64,000 nucleotides of DNA from Cristatella mucedo (lineage: Eukaryota; Bryozoa; Phylactolaemata; Cristatellidae), in contig WPIO01000001.1 of assembly GCA_009760855.2 (NCBI GenBank), positions 19,929,501 to 19,993,500 of the forward strand, read 5' to 3'. This document shows positions 24,349 through 60,627 of the stretch, piece after piece; positions within the stretch are counted from its first letter, which is position 1; every line of letters starts with the position of its first letter. The notes beneath the pieces were generated by a model that saw only the letters and a list, made by a program, of their open reading frames with translations, was not told the origin of the DNA and made no database searches. A program made the position numbers and the translations under genes.

Positions 24349-24356
24349 CTGTAGAC

Positions 24357-24514
24357 CAGCGGTTCTCAACCTGTGGGTCGCGACCCCCCTTTGGGGTTTA
24401 AACGACCCTTTTCGCGGGGGTCACCTAAGACCATCGAAAAACACGCTTTTCCACATTTTGCACGCAATAATTTCATTGTTGGGGATGCGGCATTTGGAAG
24501 GTTGAGAATCACTG
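24357..24514 (+). mobile_element. SPIN-like hAT miniature transposon, copy 1
   Basis: A 158-bp element with inverted ends CAGCGGTTCTCAACCT at the left and AGGTTGAGAATCACTG at the right. The left interior, TGTGGGTCGCGACCCC then GGGGTCACCTAAGACCATCG, matches the start of SPIN-type hAT elements as I remember it. It is flanked by 8-bp sequences CTGTAGAC (24349-24356) and CTATAGGC (24515-24522), a target duplication with two mismatches; 8 bp is the hAT hallmark. There is no transposase frame, so it is non-autonomous. Confidence 0.85.
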
Positions 24515-24522
24515 CTATAGGC

Positions 24523-26956: not shown

Positions 26957-27235
26957 TCAGTCAATGGAGCAGCAGAGACCTATGGCAGCTATCAAGACGA
27001 TTAATTCGAGCACTGCGATGCCAACGCCTACACCGATGAATACTACTCCAGCATATTGCAGCGAGTCAATTACTCGAGGCTTACAGCCAGGAAAAATGGT
27101 GCCCGCCGTGACATTCGAGCTCTTGGCGGCCGCATTGCAGGAAGCGTACGCTGTCGAGTTCGAGCAGCAAGGACGTGGAAGCTGCTGTACGGTAAGGTTG
27201 AAGTCCGCGTAGCCTGTCCAGCCACAGCAACTCAA
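26957..27235 (-). CDS. Tetraspanin 1, exon 2 (large loop and TM4)
   Basis: Last coding exon, 279 nt, 92 residues plus stop (TGA at 26957). The acceptor is CCTTTGACCTGTTGCAG just above 27235, a good polypyrimidine-CAG site in phase 0. The exon opens with LSCCGW, the CCG signature of the tetraspanin large extracellular loop. Further on are PRPCC (equivalent of PxSCC), a cysteine at SC and the GC pair, giving six loop cysteines for three disulphides. Glycosylation sequons NLT, NST and NVT are present. TM4 follows, with the conserved Glu in AVLELIVLI, and a five-residue tail ending CCSID whose cysteines are potential palmitoylation sites. Joined to 29677-30138 it gives a 246-residue protein, a usual tetraspanin length. 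An open frame continues upstream of 27235 (to 27322) but lies in the intron. Confidence 0.85.
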   Translation of the reverse strand: MSCCGWTGYADFNLTVQQLPRPCCSNSTAYASCNAAAKSSNVTAGTIFPGCKPRVIDSLQYAGVVFIGVGVGIAVLELIVLIAAIGLCCSID

Positions 27236-28024
27236 CTGCAACAGGTCAAAGGCTGCCCGTGCCCATAATGCATTGAGGAGTCTTACATTCGCTGACAGCA
27301 ACAACTTTGATACAGTAGACACTCCGTTGTGATTTCCTTATTATGCCTGCTAGAAATTCTTTGCATTTAAGGAGCGTTGTCTCTGGTTAGAAATAGCCAT
27401 GGATTGCAATAAATCATCATTGTCCGTGCAATGGTGTGGGTAGGTGCATCACTCAAAGCAGCTGAATAGAATGCACTGCACATTATTAGCACTCAGGAAG
27501 TTTTAACAAACTGCAGTTCATCCGAACGGCCTGGACAGGTGTTCATACATTAGTAGTACTTCGGGCCAAGTATCGATATTCCGAGCATGGAAGTGTGATA
27601 AAATAATGCAGACGATGCTGAGTGCTACGTCTGATGGATACAGAAAACTAAGGCTGGAGAGTATTGGTAGTGAATTAAAAACTATGGCACTAAAAACTCC
27701 ATAAGAAATATCTCTAAACAAGTTTTGCACGAGTAAAATCTTTAAAGATCATTGAGGTTGCATTTTGAAATGCTTGCTGAAATCACAAGACTGCCTACCT
27801 GACTCTGAACCATAAGGGTCAGCAAAAACAGCACAAGGTCTGTGTATTGACGAAGGACTCGAGTTTATAAAAAAAATAAGGAGTTTCACCGAACAGTCTG
27901 CTAAGCTTATGAAAATGCTCAGCAAGCGATCTGCGAGAAGTATTCGAACCTGGATGATGCCGAAAATCGTCTACACGAATCTTTTTGAGACTATTACTCA
28001 TCATTCAATTCGGTCTCCCTTTGC

Positions 28025-29560: not shown

Positions 29561-29676
29561 AGACCAGAGGTCATTTAAAAAATAGGTCATCTGAACCGTC
29601 CATCCTTGGATCGGAATGAGCACACGCTCTAAGCGCTCCACTTTGCTGGGACCCGAGACCTGAACGAGCTGCTTAC

Positions 29677-30138
29677 CTCAGTCATAAGTAGGTCGCTGAT
29701 CAAGCTCGAGTTGTTCGGGTAATTGTTCCTAGTGTCATTCGTTATGGCAGTGTCAACGGCTGCCGAGAAATCCTTGAACTTGACGTAGGCATATATTCCG
29801 CCACCGAGTTCACCAGCGATGGTGACGACTATTAATGCTGTGTAGAGGCTCAGCAGGCATTTGCTTTCCCGAATAGCGCCGCAGCAGCCACAGAAGCCGA
29901 CGACGAAGACAAATGCACCGAAAGCAATGAAGATGGCCCAAGCTGTCTGCAGTGCCACAGCGAGCCCTAGGGCATCGGCTACCGTGCTACTTGGGTTGTA
30001 CCTGAAGTACCGATCGATAGTCTTGTCGAATCGCAACCACAAACCGACGGCGAGAATAACTCCGCCGGCGAGGAAGAAAAGTGTGTTCAAGATGAACAGG
30101 AAATACTTGGCACACTTGGCTCCGCAGCTCTTGCCCAT
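29677..30138 (-). CDS. Tetraspanin 1, exon 1 (TM1-TM3)
   Basis: First coding exon, 462 nt, 154 residues, phase-0 donor GAG|GTAAGC. The start ATG at 30138 has a good context (GAG before, G after) and leaves the usual short N-terminal cytoplasmic tail, MGKSCGAKCAKY, with two cysteines for palmitoylation. TM1 is about residues 13-34 with the buried Asn of FLFILN, the small loop 35-63, TM2 64-85, the GCCGAIRESKCLL signature between TM2 and TM3 (84-96), and TM3 95-117 with Glu at 110. The large loop then starts and is broken by the intron after SDLLMTE. Tetraspanins are membrane scaffolds that laterally organise integrins, receptors and other partners at the cell surface or in endosomes. The GCCGA/YP pattern is like the CD63/CD151-type group, but orthology cannot be decided here. 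Confidence 0.92.
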
Positions 30139-30194
30139 CTCGTCAGAGCCGACGAACGTTCAGCAATGGACGACTGCACGAGCACCGCCTTCGC

Positions 30195-30612: not shown

Positions 30613-30620
30613 GACTAGGT

Positions 30621-30740
30621 CAGTGGTTCTCAACCTGTGGGTAGCGAACCCTTTGCAAAGAATAATTTTACGGTTGGGGCTCGCCACGCATGAGGAACAG
30701 TATTAAAGGGTCGTGGCATTAGGAAGGTTGAGAACGACTT
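30621..30740 (+). mobile_element. SPIN-like hAT miniature transposon, copy 2
   Basis: A 120-bp element with ends CAGTGGTTCTCAACCT and AGGTTGAGAACGACTT. Its right interior, AATAATTTTACGGTTGGGG, CATGAGGAACAGTATTAAAG and GGTCGTGGCATTAGG, matches the 3' part of SPIN-type elements as I remember it. Flanking 8-mers GACTAGGT (30613-30620) and CACTAGGT (30741-30748) form a target duplication with one mismatch. The left part is much shortened, so this is an internally deleted derivative, different from copy 1. Confidence 0.87.
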
Positions 30741-31080
30741 CACTAGGTGCTGTACACTAGGTCAGCCTAAGGTCAGGGGTAATTGACAGTTGCTGGGTTA
30801 TTATCGTAGGAGCCTCGACGCGTTACGAGTTACGAGTTACAACCGTAGCTGTAAGGATGCTGTAAGCTGCTGTTAGGAATCCACTGTGGCAGCTTCCAAG
30901 GAATCCTTTGCAGCAAGCATAGCGAATGCAACGACGCTAGACCTCGAGGACGTACGATAAAAACAGGTGGAGCAGGCGCCTGGAAGCAGGGCTTGCGAGC
31001 AGATGACATTGCTACACTGACACGTGCAGGCACGCCCACGTATGCAGAGCGCGGCCGGCAGCAAAATAGAGCGCCCTTAA

Positions 31081-32841: not shown

Positions 32842-32985
32842 TCTGCCAAGCTGGGTTGGTCCAGTGGTTAAGGTGCTCTCCCCGACTAAGGTCTGGCTGA
32901 GGTCGTGGGCTAGAGCCCAGAGGCATATGTGAAGCGCCTGGATAGAGATTTAGTTCTCTCGGGGCGCTATACAAATGAATTATTT
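32842..32985 (+). mobile_element. SINE1 copy (first of a tandem pair)
   Basis: tRNA-derived head GGTCCAGTGGTTAAGGTGCTC (A-box region) and GTGGGCTAGAGCCC (B-box region), then the tail GCGCCTGGATAGAGATTTAG, TCTCGGGGCGCTATACAAAT, GAATTATTTT. Confidence 0.85.
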
Positions 32986-32989
32986 TTCT

Positions 32990-33130
32990 GCCGAGCTGGT
33001 TTGGTCTAGCGGTTAAGGTGCTCGCCCCGACCAAGGTCTGACTGAGGTCGTGGGCTCGAGCCCCGAGGTATATATGAAGCGCCTGAATAGAGATTAAGTT
33101 CTCTTGGGGCGCTATATAAATGAATTATAT
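32990..33130 (+). mobile_element. SINE1 copy (second of a tandem pair)
   Basis: Head-to-tail with the previous copy. GGTCTAGCGGTTAAGGTGC, B box GGGCTCGAGCCCC (intact palindromic core), tail GCGCCTGAATAGAGATTAAG, TCTTGGGGCGCTATATAAAT. It is the best-preserved SINE1 here. It probably arose by insertion into the A-rich tail of the first copy. Confidence 0.87.
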
Positions 33131-47654: not shown

Positions 47655-48674
47655 TCACGTGGCGACCGCTGATTTTGAGCCGCTCGACCGCTTCTTCTTG
47701 GTAGAGGGAGACTTCGCTCCACTTGCGCCGCCGCTAGCGACCCTGCCGCCGCCACTGGCACCTCCGCCGCCGCTGGTTCCACCGCCGCCGCTGGCTCCAC
47801 CGCCACCGCTGGCTCCACCACCGCCGCTAGCACCTCCTCCTCCGCCGTCGCCGCCGCTGGCTCCACCGACGCCAAGGGCGCTGCTGCCGCCGCCATTGGT
47901 TCGGCCGCCGGCAGTTCGGCCGCCGCTGGCTCCGCCGCTGGCTCCGCCGCTGGCTCCGCCGCTGGCTCCGCCGCTGGCTCCGCCGCTGGCTCCGCCGCCG
48001 CTGGCGTCTGCCTCGGTCTGCTTAGGGTCGCCGGCAGCCTGGTTCGATGCCACGGACACTGTCTTGGCGGCGGAAGGCGTCGGAGTCTCGTCCGCCGTGG
48101 CTCGCACAGCCATCGCCGCAGCCACAGCCGCCACCGCCGTCGCCGCCGCCGACGAGCTGGTGGACATGATGTCGTAGTCGGGCGGCGGGCGGATCTCGGA
48201 TGTCTTCGACCGCAGCGAGATGATAGATCGGCTCAGCTCGCTCGACACGCGAGACGCCGCGTCCACGGTTGTAGCCAGCACGCTCGTGGCTGAGGCCGCC
48301 GCCGGACCGCCGCCGCCGCGGCGGCTCGGCTTGGACTTGGCCGCGGCGGAGTTGTCGCCGCTGAGCACGGACACGCAGAAGCCCAGTCCGACGAGCAGGA
48401 CCACGATTTCGGCTAGCGCCACGCCAATGGCCGCTCCGAGGAAGACCCAGGACAGGTTGAGCAGAGTGGCGACGAGGACGCGCTTGCAGCCAAGCCAGTA
48501 GAGGCCGCGCGGCGGGCGGACGCCCTGCGAGTGGTCCCACTCCGAGCAATGGCCGACCTCGTCCTCGGCTGTGCTTTGGTGGCGGCAGCACGATTGAGGC
48601 ACCCCGATAGAGTTGCGGCGGGCAAACTTGCTGTCGGCGAAGTCTTGATGTCCGTTCCAGCCGCAGCACTGATA
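47655..48674 (-). CDS. Tetraspanin last exon with long Gly/Ala/Ser-rich tail
   Basis: A 1020-nt exon, 339 residues plus stop, phase-0 acceptor (TCTTCGGATTTAG before 48674, or CAG six bases on). It opens YQCCGW, the tetraspanin large-loop signature, followed by PQSCC (26-30), a lone Cys at 43 and WLGC (60-63), six loop cysteines in all. TM4 is about 70-99 with the conserved Glu at 89. The cytoplasmic tail of about 240 residues is far longer than the usual 5-30. It holds RRGGGG, an Ala-rich stretch, PPPDY (163-167, a PPxY motif known to bind NEDD4-type WW domains), a Gly-Ala-Ser minisatellite (about 225-315) and a basic end STKKKRSSGSK. The exon is much more GC-rich than the other tetraspanin exons. 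No first exon lies nearby, so its likely partner is 55415-55894. Confidence 0.85.
   Translation of the reverse strand, partial: YQCCGWNGHQDFADSKFARRNSIGVPQSCCRHQSTAEDEVGHCSEWDHSQGVRPPRGLYWLGCKRVLVATLLNLSWVFLGAAIGVALAEIVVLLVGLGFCVSVLSGDNSAAAKSKPSRRGGGGPAAASATSVLATTVDAASRVSSELSRSIISLRSKTSEIRPPPDYDIMSTSSSAAATAVAAVAAAMAVRATADETPTPSAAKTVSVASNQAAGDPKQTEADASGGGASGGASGGASGGASGGASGGASGGRTAGGRTNGGGSSALGVGGASGGDGGGGGASGGGGASGGGGASGGGGTSGGGGASGGGRVASGGASGAKSPSTKKKRSSGSKSAVAT
47735..48004 (-). repeat. Coding minisatellite (GGAS / GGGGAS units)
   Basis: Two in-frame arrays inside the tetraspanin tail: 12-base units (GCTGGCTCCGCC on the plus strand) at about 47925-48004 and 15-base units (GCTGGTTCCACCGCC type) at about 47745-47860. 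All units keep the frame. Length polymorphism is likely. Confidence 0.9.
48174..48188 (-). other. PPxY motif in the tetraspanin tail
   Basis: Codes PPPDY. PPxY motifs bind WW domains, for example of NEDD4-family ubiquitin ligases that direct membrane cargo to endosomes. Binding is an inference from the motif only. Confidence 0.5.
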
Positions 48675-55025: not shown

Positions 55026-55414
55026 ATTTCGCTATAGGAATTTTTAATTATTAAACAGGAAATGTAATTATTATAATGGTAAGCTGCAGGGCAGATCATT
55101 CTTTCATAAGTGGAAAATGACCTGCTGTATCGAAAGAACCAGAGGCTATCTATACACATATTTAACGATATGCATAAACGAATATAAGTAAATACAAGCA
55201 CCTGTATTTGCATCTAGTGCTCAGTGCCTTGAGTGAAAGAAAACGTTACACGGGTCTAATAGTTTTGGAAAAATAGCCTAAGCCCTAACAAAAAATTTAC
55301 GCGGAATCAACTGCATACCTAAATAATTAATTGTCGTGATTGACTCAAAAGCAAAAGACACGGCAGGATGGCTTGGTTTGCTGACACTAGTGGCAGCGGC
55401 AAAAGATTATTTAC
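55026..55414. other. No gene recognised; start of probable intron
   Basis: Downstream (minus strand) of the donor of the tetraspanin exon at 55415. Open frame continues about 31 codons past the donor, then stops. Confidence 0.4.
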
Positions 55415-55894
55415 CTTCTTCATGATATCATCGGTTATGTACCGTGAGTCTGGGTATCTTTCTGAAATGTCGTAGGCAAGAAGGTCCGAAATATAATCGT
55501 CAATAATGTTTAAGTTCATACGGGCAAATACTCCTCCCGTTAATTGACCAATAATGAGTATGGCTACCAATGCTACGTAAGCACTCAAGAGACACTTGTC
55601 TTCCTTGAATGCCCCATAGCATCCTAGAGCGCTAACAAAGAACACGAGTGATCCAAAAACGACGAAAATTGTGGACGCTGTGTAGACGAACTCTTTGATG
55701 TTCAGAAGTTCTTGTATTGCACTGCCCATTGATGAGTTCTTAACATACTCAGCATCAACGGAGATCCAGATACCGATTCCAAGTGCAATTCCTCCACCTA
55801 ATGTTAGCAGTATATTGATACTAACTAATGGCAACCTGCACCATCCGAATTTAGAAATTATCTTTTCCAAAAGTTCCTGTGTGGCAGATGCCAT
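55415..55894 (-). CDS. Tetraspanin first exon (TM1-TM3)
   Basis: A 480-nt exon, 160 residues, phase-0 donor AAG|GTAAAT. I chose ATG 55894 because it leaves a normal cytoplasmic N-terminus (MASATQELLEKIISKFGW) before TM1; the same frame is open 60 more codons upstream, without tetraspanin features. TM1 is about 21-46, the small loop 47-68 with sequon NSS, TM2 69-95, the signature GCYGAFKEDKCLL 91-103, TM3 101-124, and the start of the large loop ending ERYPDSRYITDDIMKK. The intron position and phase equal those of the complete gene at 26957-30138. The next minus-strand exon with the right phase and a CCG opening is 48674-47655, so I infer one gene with a 6.7-kb intron and about 499 residues. 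Base composition differs strongly between the two exons, which weakens the link. Confidence 0.88.
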
Positions 55895-55991
55895 GGAGAG
55901 TGTGCTGTGACCGCTGTTCCTAACAATGCAACCTAGCGGAAAGACCTGAAGGCACGTCACAATCTCAGTTTCATAAATCTGCGGTTCGCTT

Positions 55992-56417
55992 TCAAGTTTT
56001 CCTGCAAATATGATGCAAAGCACTTGTAACAGCATTTCCTGTATAAATACTTTTACAGGCGATTTTGTCAACAACGACGTTTCGGAATTTGCCTACAAAG
56101 GAAAATTGATTTATGGTTTTGGCCAACGGAACTACTCTCGGGAGTTCAGAGCAGTTACTTGTGGCTAGGATGAGCCCAATTTCACGTCTAAAGGATCTGG
56201 CTACAAGGTCCTCAAATTTAAACCACAGCTCAGTAAAACTATCCCAGATGTAAACCAGAAGCTTTAGAGGGGAAAGGCTGGTATACATGCAAGTGCCGTG
56301 GAACTTACTTTCTGACAGGATTTCTGCAAGTTTGGAAGCACCAGCATAGTTATAACATTTTTGTAAAGAGACATCCACGATATCTTCCATTGTTAACGAA
56401 ACATAGCTCAAGAACAT
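55992..56417 (-). CDS. Unrecognised 141-codon open frame
   Basis: Ends about 100 bases upstream of the tetraspanin start at 55894, on the same strand, and overlaps the upstream extension of that frame. It begins MFLSYVSLTMEDIVDVSLQK and has no signal peptide, TM segment or motif I can name. An acceptor-like CATCATATTTGCAG near 56004 (minus) suggests that part may be 5' untranslated exon or intron of the tetraspanin instead. It may be chance. Confidence 0.2.
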   Translation of the reverse strand: MFLSYVSLTMEDIVDVSLQKCYNYAGASKLAEILSESKFHGTCMYTSLSPLKLLVYIWDSFTELWFKFEDLVARSFRREIGLILATSNCSELPRVVPLAKTINQFSFVGKFRNVVVDKIACKSIYTGNAVTSALHHICRKT

Positions 56418-58392: not shown

Positions 58393-59928
58393 ATACGTCT
58401 TTAGTGAGAGCCTGAAAAAACAACTTATAGTATTCAGCCTTGTGATTTTCCGAAAAGCATAAAACGACTACAAACACTGTTTCTACCAGTTTTGTATATC
58501 CTGTTTAGCTTCTAAGTGAATTATTCGCACTCTAGGATCTTTTTTATTAATGATCCAACGAAGATACCTGCATCGAACTGTGAATCAGACAGCTGTGGAA
58601 AGACATATTAATGGCTGTTAAAAGCTGCTGTATCAATTTCATAATCAAAAGCCATGAAAATAGCCGAAGGAGACCTAAATTAGAATACACCAATCGCATC
58701 AGCATTTTTCAAGGGTCTACCCGCGGCTTACTTTTACTGCCGTTCTTCCTAAGAAATAAATTTGGTCCTCTGCAGCCAGTCCCTTCCATGAAAGTGTGCC
58801 AGAAATTTCAGGCCGTCTAATAATAATAATATAATAATAATAATAATAGGCTGAGAAAACAATCAAACTTCGTGAAGCCGCCTCGGAGGCTCATCGGGAG
58901 TGACAATATTTTGAAGTCATCAACGACCTCCTAATCTTAGTTGCCATACTTAGTAGGCAGTAAGCAATATTGACACTAGCGAAATCCTCTCTGATGTGCA
59001 CAGCATTAGCAATGCGGAGATATGAAAATCTAACTGTGAGTGGTGGCGTCTGCCATAGGATTGATTGAGCGACAAAACATCTCACCTCAATCAGGAAAAT
59101 ATCCACAATCAAGTGTTCTTATTGATTAAGCTACTGAGGCTTGATCTTAAAGACAATAAGAATATACTTAGTCTTGATTCTAAATTTTCACTCGAGTGCT
59201 TAAACAACAGCAGGTGTACTGTCTGAATGGATCACTTAATTGCCATTTGGTAAGAGACAGCAACTAAAACGGCTGATTTTTTTAATGAATAAAGACTATA
59301 CTTGAGCTGGTTGACTTGAGCGATTCTGGAAAGGTGGGAATGAATCAACTAGCTCAACCCCACTGTAAGATTGGACCCTAGCTAGTATCAATTGTCGCTT
59401 ACAATCTATTTCTTACCAGCTATGATAATAGGCTCTAGCATATGATACGGATAGCGTGGGTTAAGCACCCTAAACAAGACAGTATGTGACTTCTAAGGAT
59501 ATTTTGCATCTTAAATATTTTTGACATGCAACAACTTATAGATATCGGGCTTGTGTTAGCGGGTTCGGCCATATCTAAAGGTCCAGTTTAAGCGAAGGGC
59601 ATATCTGGAATTGTATTCAGTAAGGAGGCTACAGCTGGCACTTGATATGAAAGTTATGACACTAACAATTCATCGGCAGCAAAAAATATCAGCATCTACA
59701 AAATATTGTGTAAAAATTAAATAAGTAGACCGGCTATGAGAATCAAACAATCTGGAATGGTACCCTAGTAAGGCTATTTATCGCGCAGTACACAAATTCG
59801 TAAGAGAATAGGAGAAACGCTAACAAAATTTGGTGCACATTTTCTTATTGTGACGCAGGCTGTGCCAGTCCGTAATCAGGCTATTGTTCTGAGCAAAGAA
59901 AACATCAAAGCCAATAACCGGCGGTACA
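58393..59928. other. No gene recognised; AAT microsatellite
   Basis: An AAT/ATAAT repeat lies at about 58818-58852. A CpG-rich CAATCGCATCAGC area near 58690 and short frames are anonymous. The end is the upstream region of the tetraspanin at 59929. Confidence 0.4.
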
Positions 59929-60351
59929 ATGGTCTTGCTCGGCATTGCTAATGTTGTAATGCTAATTTCTGGGTTCGCAGTCATTGGGCTCGGTGTATGG
60001 CCATTCATAGAGACGACCATTGAAAATCGTGTAGCATTTAACCGCTCAATCGACGAACTACTCAAGTACAAATCCGCGATTAACTACGCAGCCACGCTTT
60101 TTATAGCCGCGGGAGCGATGAAGACCATTGCCAGTGCAATAGGATTGTTCGCTTCTCATCGACCCAGTCAGTGTCTCCTGAGTACGCAAGCCGTCATGAT
60201 GCCCACTTTTGTCATCGGGCAATTATCCGGCGGCATAATTTTATATCTTAACATGGCTAAATTCAGCACGGGAAAGAGCAATGCCATCGTGCAAGACCTC
60301 ACCGAGCACTATCCCGATTCGACTTACATAAACGACGCAGTCATGGTCAAG
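59929..60351 (+). CDS. Divergent tetraspanin, first exon
   Basis: A 423-nt exon, 141 residues, phase-0 donor AAG|GTAAGA. ATG 59929 has a strong context (ACAATGG) but leaves almost no cytoplasmic N-terminus before TM1 (2-24), so a small upstream exon is possible; the frame is open back to a TGA at 59890. TM2 (51-74) contains a Lys (AAGAMKTIASA), and the usual GCxGA signature is replaced by IGLFASHRPSQCLL, keeping only the CLL part. TM3 is about 83-106 with IGQLSGGI, very like IGQLTGGV of the exon at 55415. The large loop starts and ends EHYPDSTYINDAVMVK, close to RYPDSRYITDDIMKK. It is therefore a diverged paralogue of 55415-55894, divergently oriented about 4 kb away. It could be a young pseudogene, but the frame is intact. 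Confidence 0.82.
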
Positions 60352-60627
60352 GTAAGAGTCGTGTAACGCTCGTGTTCTTGCCGGCAGCTCTCACCCGTTA
60401 CAAAGTGATTGGCAAATGAAGTGCAAAGTTGAATGGCTGCTGCTTCAGAGTTACTTTCGGGCACAAGTATAGGTTGGTGCATGCGTAGGGTCAAGCCGCC
60501 TAAGCCGCCCAGTGCTATCTGTGTGCGCCCGCAATTCAAGCCATTTATCTTGGTGAAAAACTTCCACGAAGTAGCTCGTAGCTTAAAGAAATAACTCAAT
60601 GCGAAATATTAAGCTCTCTTTAGAATA
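60352..60627. other. Intron start of the divergent tetraspanin
   Basis: No in-frame CCG exon is visible here; minus-strand frame 60324-60599 is a shadow. Confidence 0.4.

Follow-up and report, generated by a model that had tools for sequence, protein, structure and literature searches.

We interpret the element at positions 24,357 to 24,514 of the window (the whole 64,000-nucleotide stretch of Cristatella mucedo DNA that was analysed) as a dead copy of a non-autonomous hAT MITE (187 bp at full length) from the Buster group, belonging to the SPIN family or a near sister and moved in trans. We put the probability of this reading at about 0.88. The family to which this copy (copy 1) belongs probably has more than 1,000 copies that arose by transposition. 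SPIN is possibly the right name for it, on indirect evidence, and its ends and subterminal parts presumably resemble those of SPIN. The parts of copy 1 are as follows.

24349..24356, no strand: left target-site duplication of copy 1, CTGTAGAC, central TA
24357..24514, plus strand: copy 1, MITE with internal deletions, 158 bp against a full length of 187 bp, SPIN-like family of the Buster group, from alignment
24357..24372, plus strand: left terminal inverted repeat of copy 1, CAGCGGTTCTCAACCT, read directly and found by motif scan
24375..24386, no strand: subterminal palindrome in copy 1, GGGTCGCGACCC, part of the repeated GGGTCG motif, from motif count
24499..24514, minus strand: right terminal inverted repeat of copy 1, AGGTTGAGAATCACTG, two mismatches against the left one
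24515..24522, no strand: right target-site duplication of copy 1, CTATAGGC, central TA

Direct reading found these ends, together with the interior motifs TGTGGGTCGCGACCCC and CCTAAGACCATCG, exactly as the preliminary description had given them. The imperfect 8-bp target duplication that it had proposed is likewise present, as CTGTAGAC and CTATAGGC are identical at 6 of 8 positions and have TA at the center on both sides. Aligned to the family consensus, copy 1 is 91.6% identical over 155 bases. Of the 187 consensus positions, 32 are missing from it (126-148 and 151-159), and it carries three extra bases. Its length is insufficient to encode a transposase. Folded as single-strand DNA, copy 1 exceeds shuffled sequences in stability (z of -3.1), as would be expected from its inverted repeats.

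The window holds a second member of the family, also internally deleted.

30613..30620, no strand: left target-site duplication of copy 2, GACTAGGT, central TA
30621..30740, plus strand: copy 2, internally deleted MITE of the family of copy 1, 120 bp, from motif scan and alignment
30741..30748, no strand: right target-site duplication of copy 2, CACTAGGT, central TA

The two duplications of copy 2, GACTAGGT and CACTAGGT, match at 7 of 8 positions, and its alignment lacks 67 consensus bases, chiefly from the left and central portions of the consensus. When up to three mismatches are allowed, the end motif CAGCGGTTCTCAACCT has four matches in the window against 0.54 expected, a count equalled in none of 100 shuffles. 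These four matches are both ends of copy 1 and both ends of copy 2. A chance match of the element ends was rejected, because the end-motif count and the matching of the duplications both exceed those of shuffles.

We searched the 572-Mb assembly (688 contigs) with copy 1 as the query and obtained 1,733 first-look, unverified candidates. All 40 that were scored matched, with E values from 7e-76 to 2e-32 and on many contigs, so the copies elsewhere in the genome for which the preliminary description had suggested looking do exist. One extra short row among the scored matches is part of one of the 40 copies. The 40 copies had been selected for similarity to copy 1, so they do not form a random sample. 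Both ends were recognized in 38, and the other two (L008 and L016) were dropped because the right end was not recognized.

The family consensus, built from 37 copies with the window copy excluded, is 187 bp long and starts with CAGCGGTTCTCAACCT, and its terminal inverted repeats match at 15 of 16 positions. Identity to it ranges from 89.3 to 96.8% among the 38 copies. The 37 copies have a mean K2P distance of 0.067 from the consensus (0.059 outside CpG), and the two window copies lie at 0.090 and 0.088. GGGTCG occurs seven times in the consensus, compared with a mean of 0.14 and a maximum of 2 in 2,000 shuffles, and we regard these motifs as putative transposase binding sites.

Copy number was also gauged from a sample by position, comprising twenty 10-kb segments taken at round positions (200 kb in all, including 2,500 N) on six contigs, all previously known to bear scored copies or the window. 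This sample contained one copy (L044), which is full length, 93% identical, and at a K2P distance of 0.067, with a perfect 8-bp duplication, ATTTAGTG, that has the central TA. The reversed consensus found no copy in the same 200 kb. One copy per 200 kb extrapolates to some 2,900 genome-wide, an estimate whose error is very wide. Exact element patterns had no match in the viral_contigs and genome_contigs collections, nor did a distant blastn search with the L044 copy find one among plasmids and phages.

In the 38 copies, the octamers on the two sides of the element agree at 6.42 of 8 positions on average, compared with 3.61 in shuffled pairings, for which the highest mean in 2,000 was 4.34. Duplications are perfect in 10 of the 38 copies and match at six or more positions in 31; they match at five or fewer in seven copies, and at three or fewer in four. 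The central TA is found on both sides in 25/38 copies and on at least one side in 34/38. Position 4 is T in 32 left and 34 right octamers, and position 5 is A in 32 left and 33 right octamers, each out of 38.

For 39 insertions, we joined the flanks with one octamer and searched 363 kb of sequence for related sites. A spanning related sequence with an E value of 1e-10 or better was found for nine insertions. Six of the nine (L015, L018, L019, L033, L035, and L036) have an ungapped single-copy junction, with best identities from 69% (L036) to 84% (L015), while L003, L011, and L037 have spanning related sites and no ungapped junction. The joined-flank query of copy 1 found no spanning site in the 363 kb searched. 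The ungapped related sites indicate that the elements inserted into older repeats and duplicated 8 bp in doing so.

Ac-group hAT elements have the target nTnnnnAn. We rejected an Ac-type hAT, as that pattern appears in just 8 of the 38 left octamers. In PMC3942097, the hAT superfamily is described as having an 8-bp target-site duplication and short terminal inverted repeats of 10 to 25 bp, and the family has both. The target consensus given for TcBuster in PMC3499496, which places SPIN within the Buster family, is nnnTAnnn, and this is the preference seen in the 38 copies as well as in copy 2 and L044. The original hAT assignment is supported by the duplications and the inverted repeats, and the central TA narrows it to the Buster group.

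In the mechanism that we propose, a transposase made elsewhere would bind the MITE at its terminal inverted repeats and at the subterminal repeats of GGGTCG. It would then excise the MITE and paste it in at nnnTAnnn sites, where the cuts are staggered by 8 bp. Copy 1 later lost internal sequence, and it now lies about 9% from the consensus. We infer both this cut-and-paste movement in trans and the arrival of the family by horizontal transfer.

The likeness to vertebrate sequence bears on the latter. A sequence printed in the FDH knockout mouse section of PMC8376875, for which we take a mouse genomic origin from that section, aligns to consensus positions 107-187 with identity in 67 of 81 columns (83%) and one gap. 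Its alignment score of 103 compares with a maximum of 26 in 500 shuffles. The likeness includes the end AGGTTGAGAACCACTG, with one mismatch, and the left half of the MITE lies outside the alignment. The preliminary description had counted sharing of only the terminal 16 bp against SPIN; the stretch shared with this vertebrate sequence is longer than the 16-bp end, which answers that concern in part. Near relatives are probably present in tetrapod genomes, as would also be so for any close sister family. For the left half, a Kcnq1ot1 primer in PMC6221546, taken as mouse, shows 1 difference in 20 by eye, a weak likeness that came from a string search. A literature string search with element stretches of 13 to 19 bases matched only papers on non-SPIN subjects. 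Rodent hAT repeats of similar look presumably exist and are a lead only.

The MITE might instead come from a related but different Buster-group family that shares its ends and subterminal parts with SPIN, such as URR1 (a rodent hAT repeat), OC1, or an unnamed sister. We consider this possible but rather unlikely, and it overlaps our preferred reading, which admits a near sister. The mouse alignment leaves room for such a family, as it does not discriminate among mouse families, and terminal similarity is common to Buster families (PMC4298943). However, the termini given in that paper for Buster1 (CAGGGCTTCTTAAAC) and for Buster2 from bat (CAGGGGTGGCCAACCT) differ from those of the MITE, so the family does not share the terminal inverted repeats of either. 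The insertion bias of Buster1 and Buster2 in PMC4298943 is the same as that of the MITE. The Buster1 subterminal repeats printed there are TGGGTCGCG, which the GGGTCG motifs of the MITE resemble; the MITE consensus has one exact TGGGTCGCG and seven GGGTCG.

Had the family descended vertically from the ancestor shared by host and mammals, without horizontal transfer, the examined copies should not lie just 6 to 9% from their consensus (mean of 0.067; window copies at 0.090 and 0.088), nor should a non-coding sequence be 83% identical to the mouse sequence over 81 columns. Neutral drift over more than 500 million years would not be expected to leave non-coding sequence so alike; we found nothing in favor of vertical descent and regard it as highly improbable. 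Contamination of the assembly with vertebrate DNA likewise has nothing in its favor and is hardly credible, because the copies are spread over many contigs, which reach 24.8 Mb in length, and several are inside the host's own repeats, with unfilled related sites elsewhere.

A further alternative concerns the source of the transposase. A PF05699 profile search of the assembly gave 138 matches among 150 scored of 766 candidates, and a search with a transposase piece (L067) gave at least 153 matches, with 150 scored of 769 candidates. Among the matches listed for the L067 piece, one group has 48 to 100% identity and another 39 to 43%, and the ends read for both groups are unlike those of the MITE. 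We found no MITE ends beside transposase genes in the five 3' pieces that were read, two of which are possibly too short. L067 and L070 end in TTTGCCCACCCCTG (by eye), unlike the MITE ends. L071 covers the 3' end, at about 350-418, of a second Buster-like transposon, whose end AGGTTGGACACCCCTG also differs from that of the MITE. L069 belongs to the same family as L071, with a piece too short to reach its end, and neither L069 nor L068, from a young family, has a MITE-type end within 351 bp. Searching the PDB with a piece of Buster-like transposase returned no Buster structure; the best match was Hermes, at an E value of 0.47.

The autonomous partner of the MITE may have been lost, may be unsampled, or may have been replaced by cross-mobilization, in which the transposase of another Buster-like family in this genome, and not a SPIN-type transposase of its own, moved the MITE. 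Cross-mobilization has been proposed for Buster2 in PMC4298943, and the end of the L069/L071 family, AGGTTGGACACCCCTG, is like the MITE end at 12 of 16 positions. However, the last ~100 bases of L071 contain no GGGTCG by eye, and we judge this route unlikely. In L071, AGGTTGGACACCCCTG is followed by GTCTAGA and then by a common host repeat, and its group has many stop-free rows. Separately, one hAT family (for example, G000 C62:104187-104423) accounts for 55 of the 138 PF05699 matches at an equal score of 76.8 bits. Its open frames are mostly up to 642 amino acids, with one row of 1,947. The family looks to have been active recently and has an AT-rich end region (L068).

The element shares with SPIN the Buster-type 8-bp duplication with central TA, numerous short non-autonomous copies, and occurrence in an invertebrate. 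No SPIN transposase was found in the five 3' pieces. The pond snail is a SPIN host. SPIN in Rhodnius is summarized in PMC11614815, and PMC5440852 describes for Biomphalaria glabrata a hAT element whose identity to SPIN is significant and whose copies number about 1,000. That snail element is of the same kind, with a copy number of the same order and a lophotrochozoan host. The preliminary description had claimed an added host for the record of SPIN transfer. We have probably found one more host for an element of a known kind, and the new record is weaker than was claimed because the Biomphalaria glabrata copies are already in print (PMC5440852).

If the SPIN name is confirmed, the family would add a data point to one of the best-known inter-phylum transposon transfers, with copies numerous enough for the invasion to be dated. 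No new mechanism emerges from it, and SPIN-like elements have already been published from a mollusc host (PMC5440852). One could speculate that SPIN proper arrived, already in the form of a 187-bp MITE, in a lophotrochozoan lineage that lies outside the pulmonate snails and is so far unrecorded as a host, and that tetrapods were invaded from or by way of such invertebrates, but we think this quite unlikely.

The MITE copies lie near a tetraspanin gene cluster: of eight open stretches that were scanned, five gave a match to Pfam Tetraspanin.

26957-27337: open stretch matching Pfam Tetraspanin
29629-30159: open stretch matching Pfam Tetraspanin
47655-48674: open stretch matching Pfam Tetraspanin
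55319-56092, minus strand: open stretch matching Pfam Tetraspanin
59893-60366, plus strand: open stretch matching Pfam Tetraspanin

Another repeat of the window, at 32842-33128, consists of two tandem 145-bp units that are 89% alike and have by eye the look of a tRNA-derived SINE. The units carry a AAGCGCCT...GAGATT...TTCTC tail that is common to other repeats of the window.

A COX1 search identified the mitochondrial contig (C688; 21,008 bp), whose first 20,000 bases we read with the invertebrate code. Naming the genes by eye, we found nad6, cob, nad4L, nad4, and nad5 in this order on one strand, which is part of the lophotrochozoan ground pattern as given in PMC5162086. The genes cox3, atp6, cox1, and nad3 are on the strand of this block, and nad2 is on the other. 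In the 20,000 bases, cox2, atp8, nad1, and the rRNAs were not identified by eye. The 21.0-kb contig compares with a Biomphalaria mitochondrial genome of 13.6 kb (PMC5162086). These data make the host a probable lophotrochozoan other than Biomphalaria, and by its gene order an insect such as Rhodnius is unlikely. The mitochondrial contig contains a duplicated segment, with the same open stretches at L065 3075-4006 and at L066 991-1922 and 3106-4037, once inverted, and a second partial nad3-like stretch at L066 2726-2965. COX1-like fragments with TGA codons occur on other contigs (G000:C166:4375626-4376390, C83, C549, and C299) and represent either mitochondrial DNA that has entered the nuclear genome or stray contigs of mitochondrial origin.
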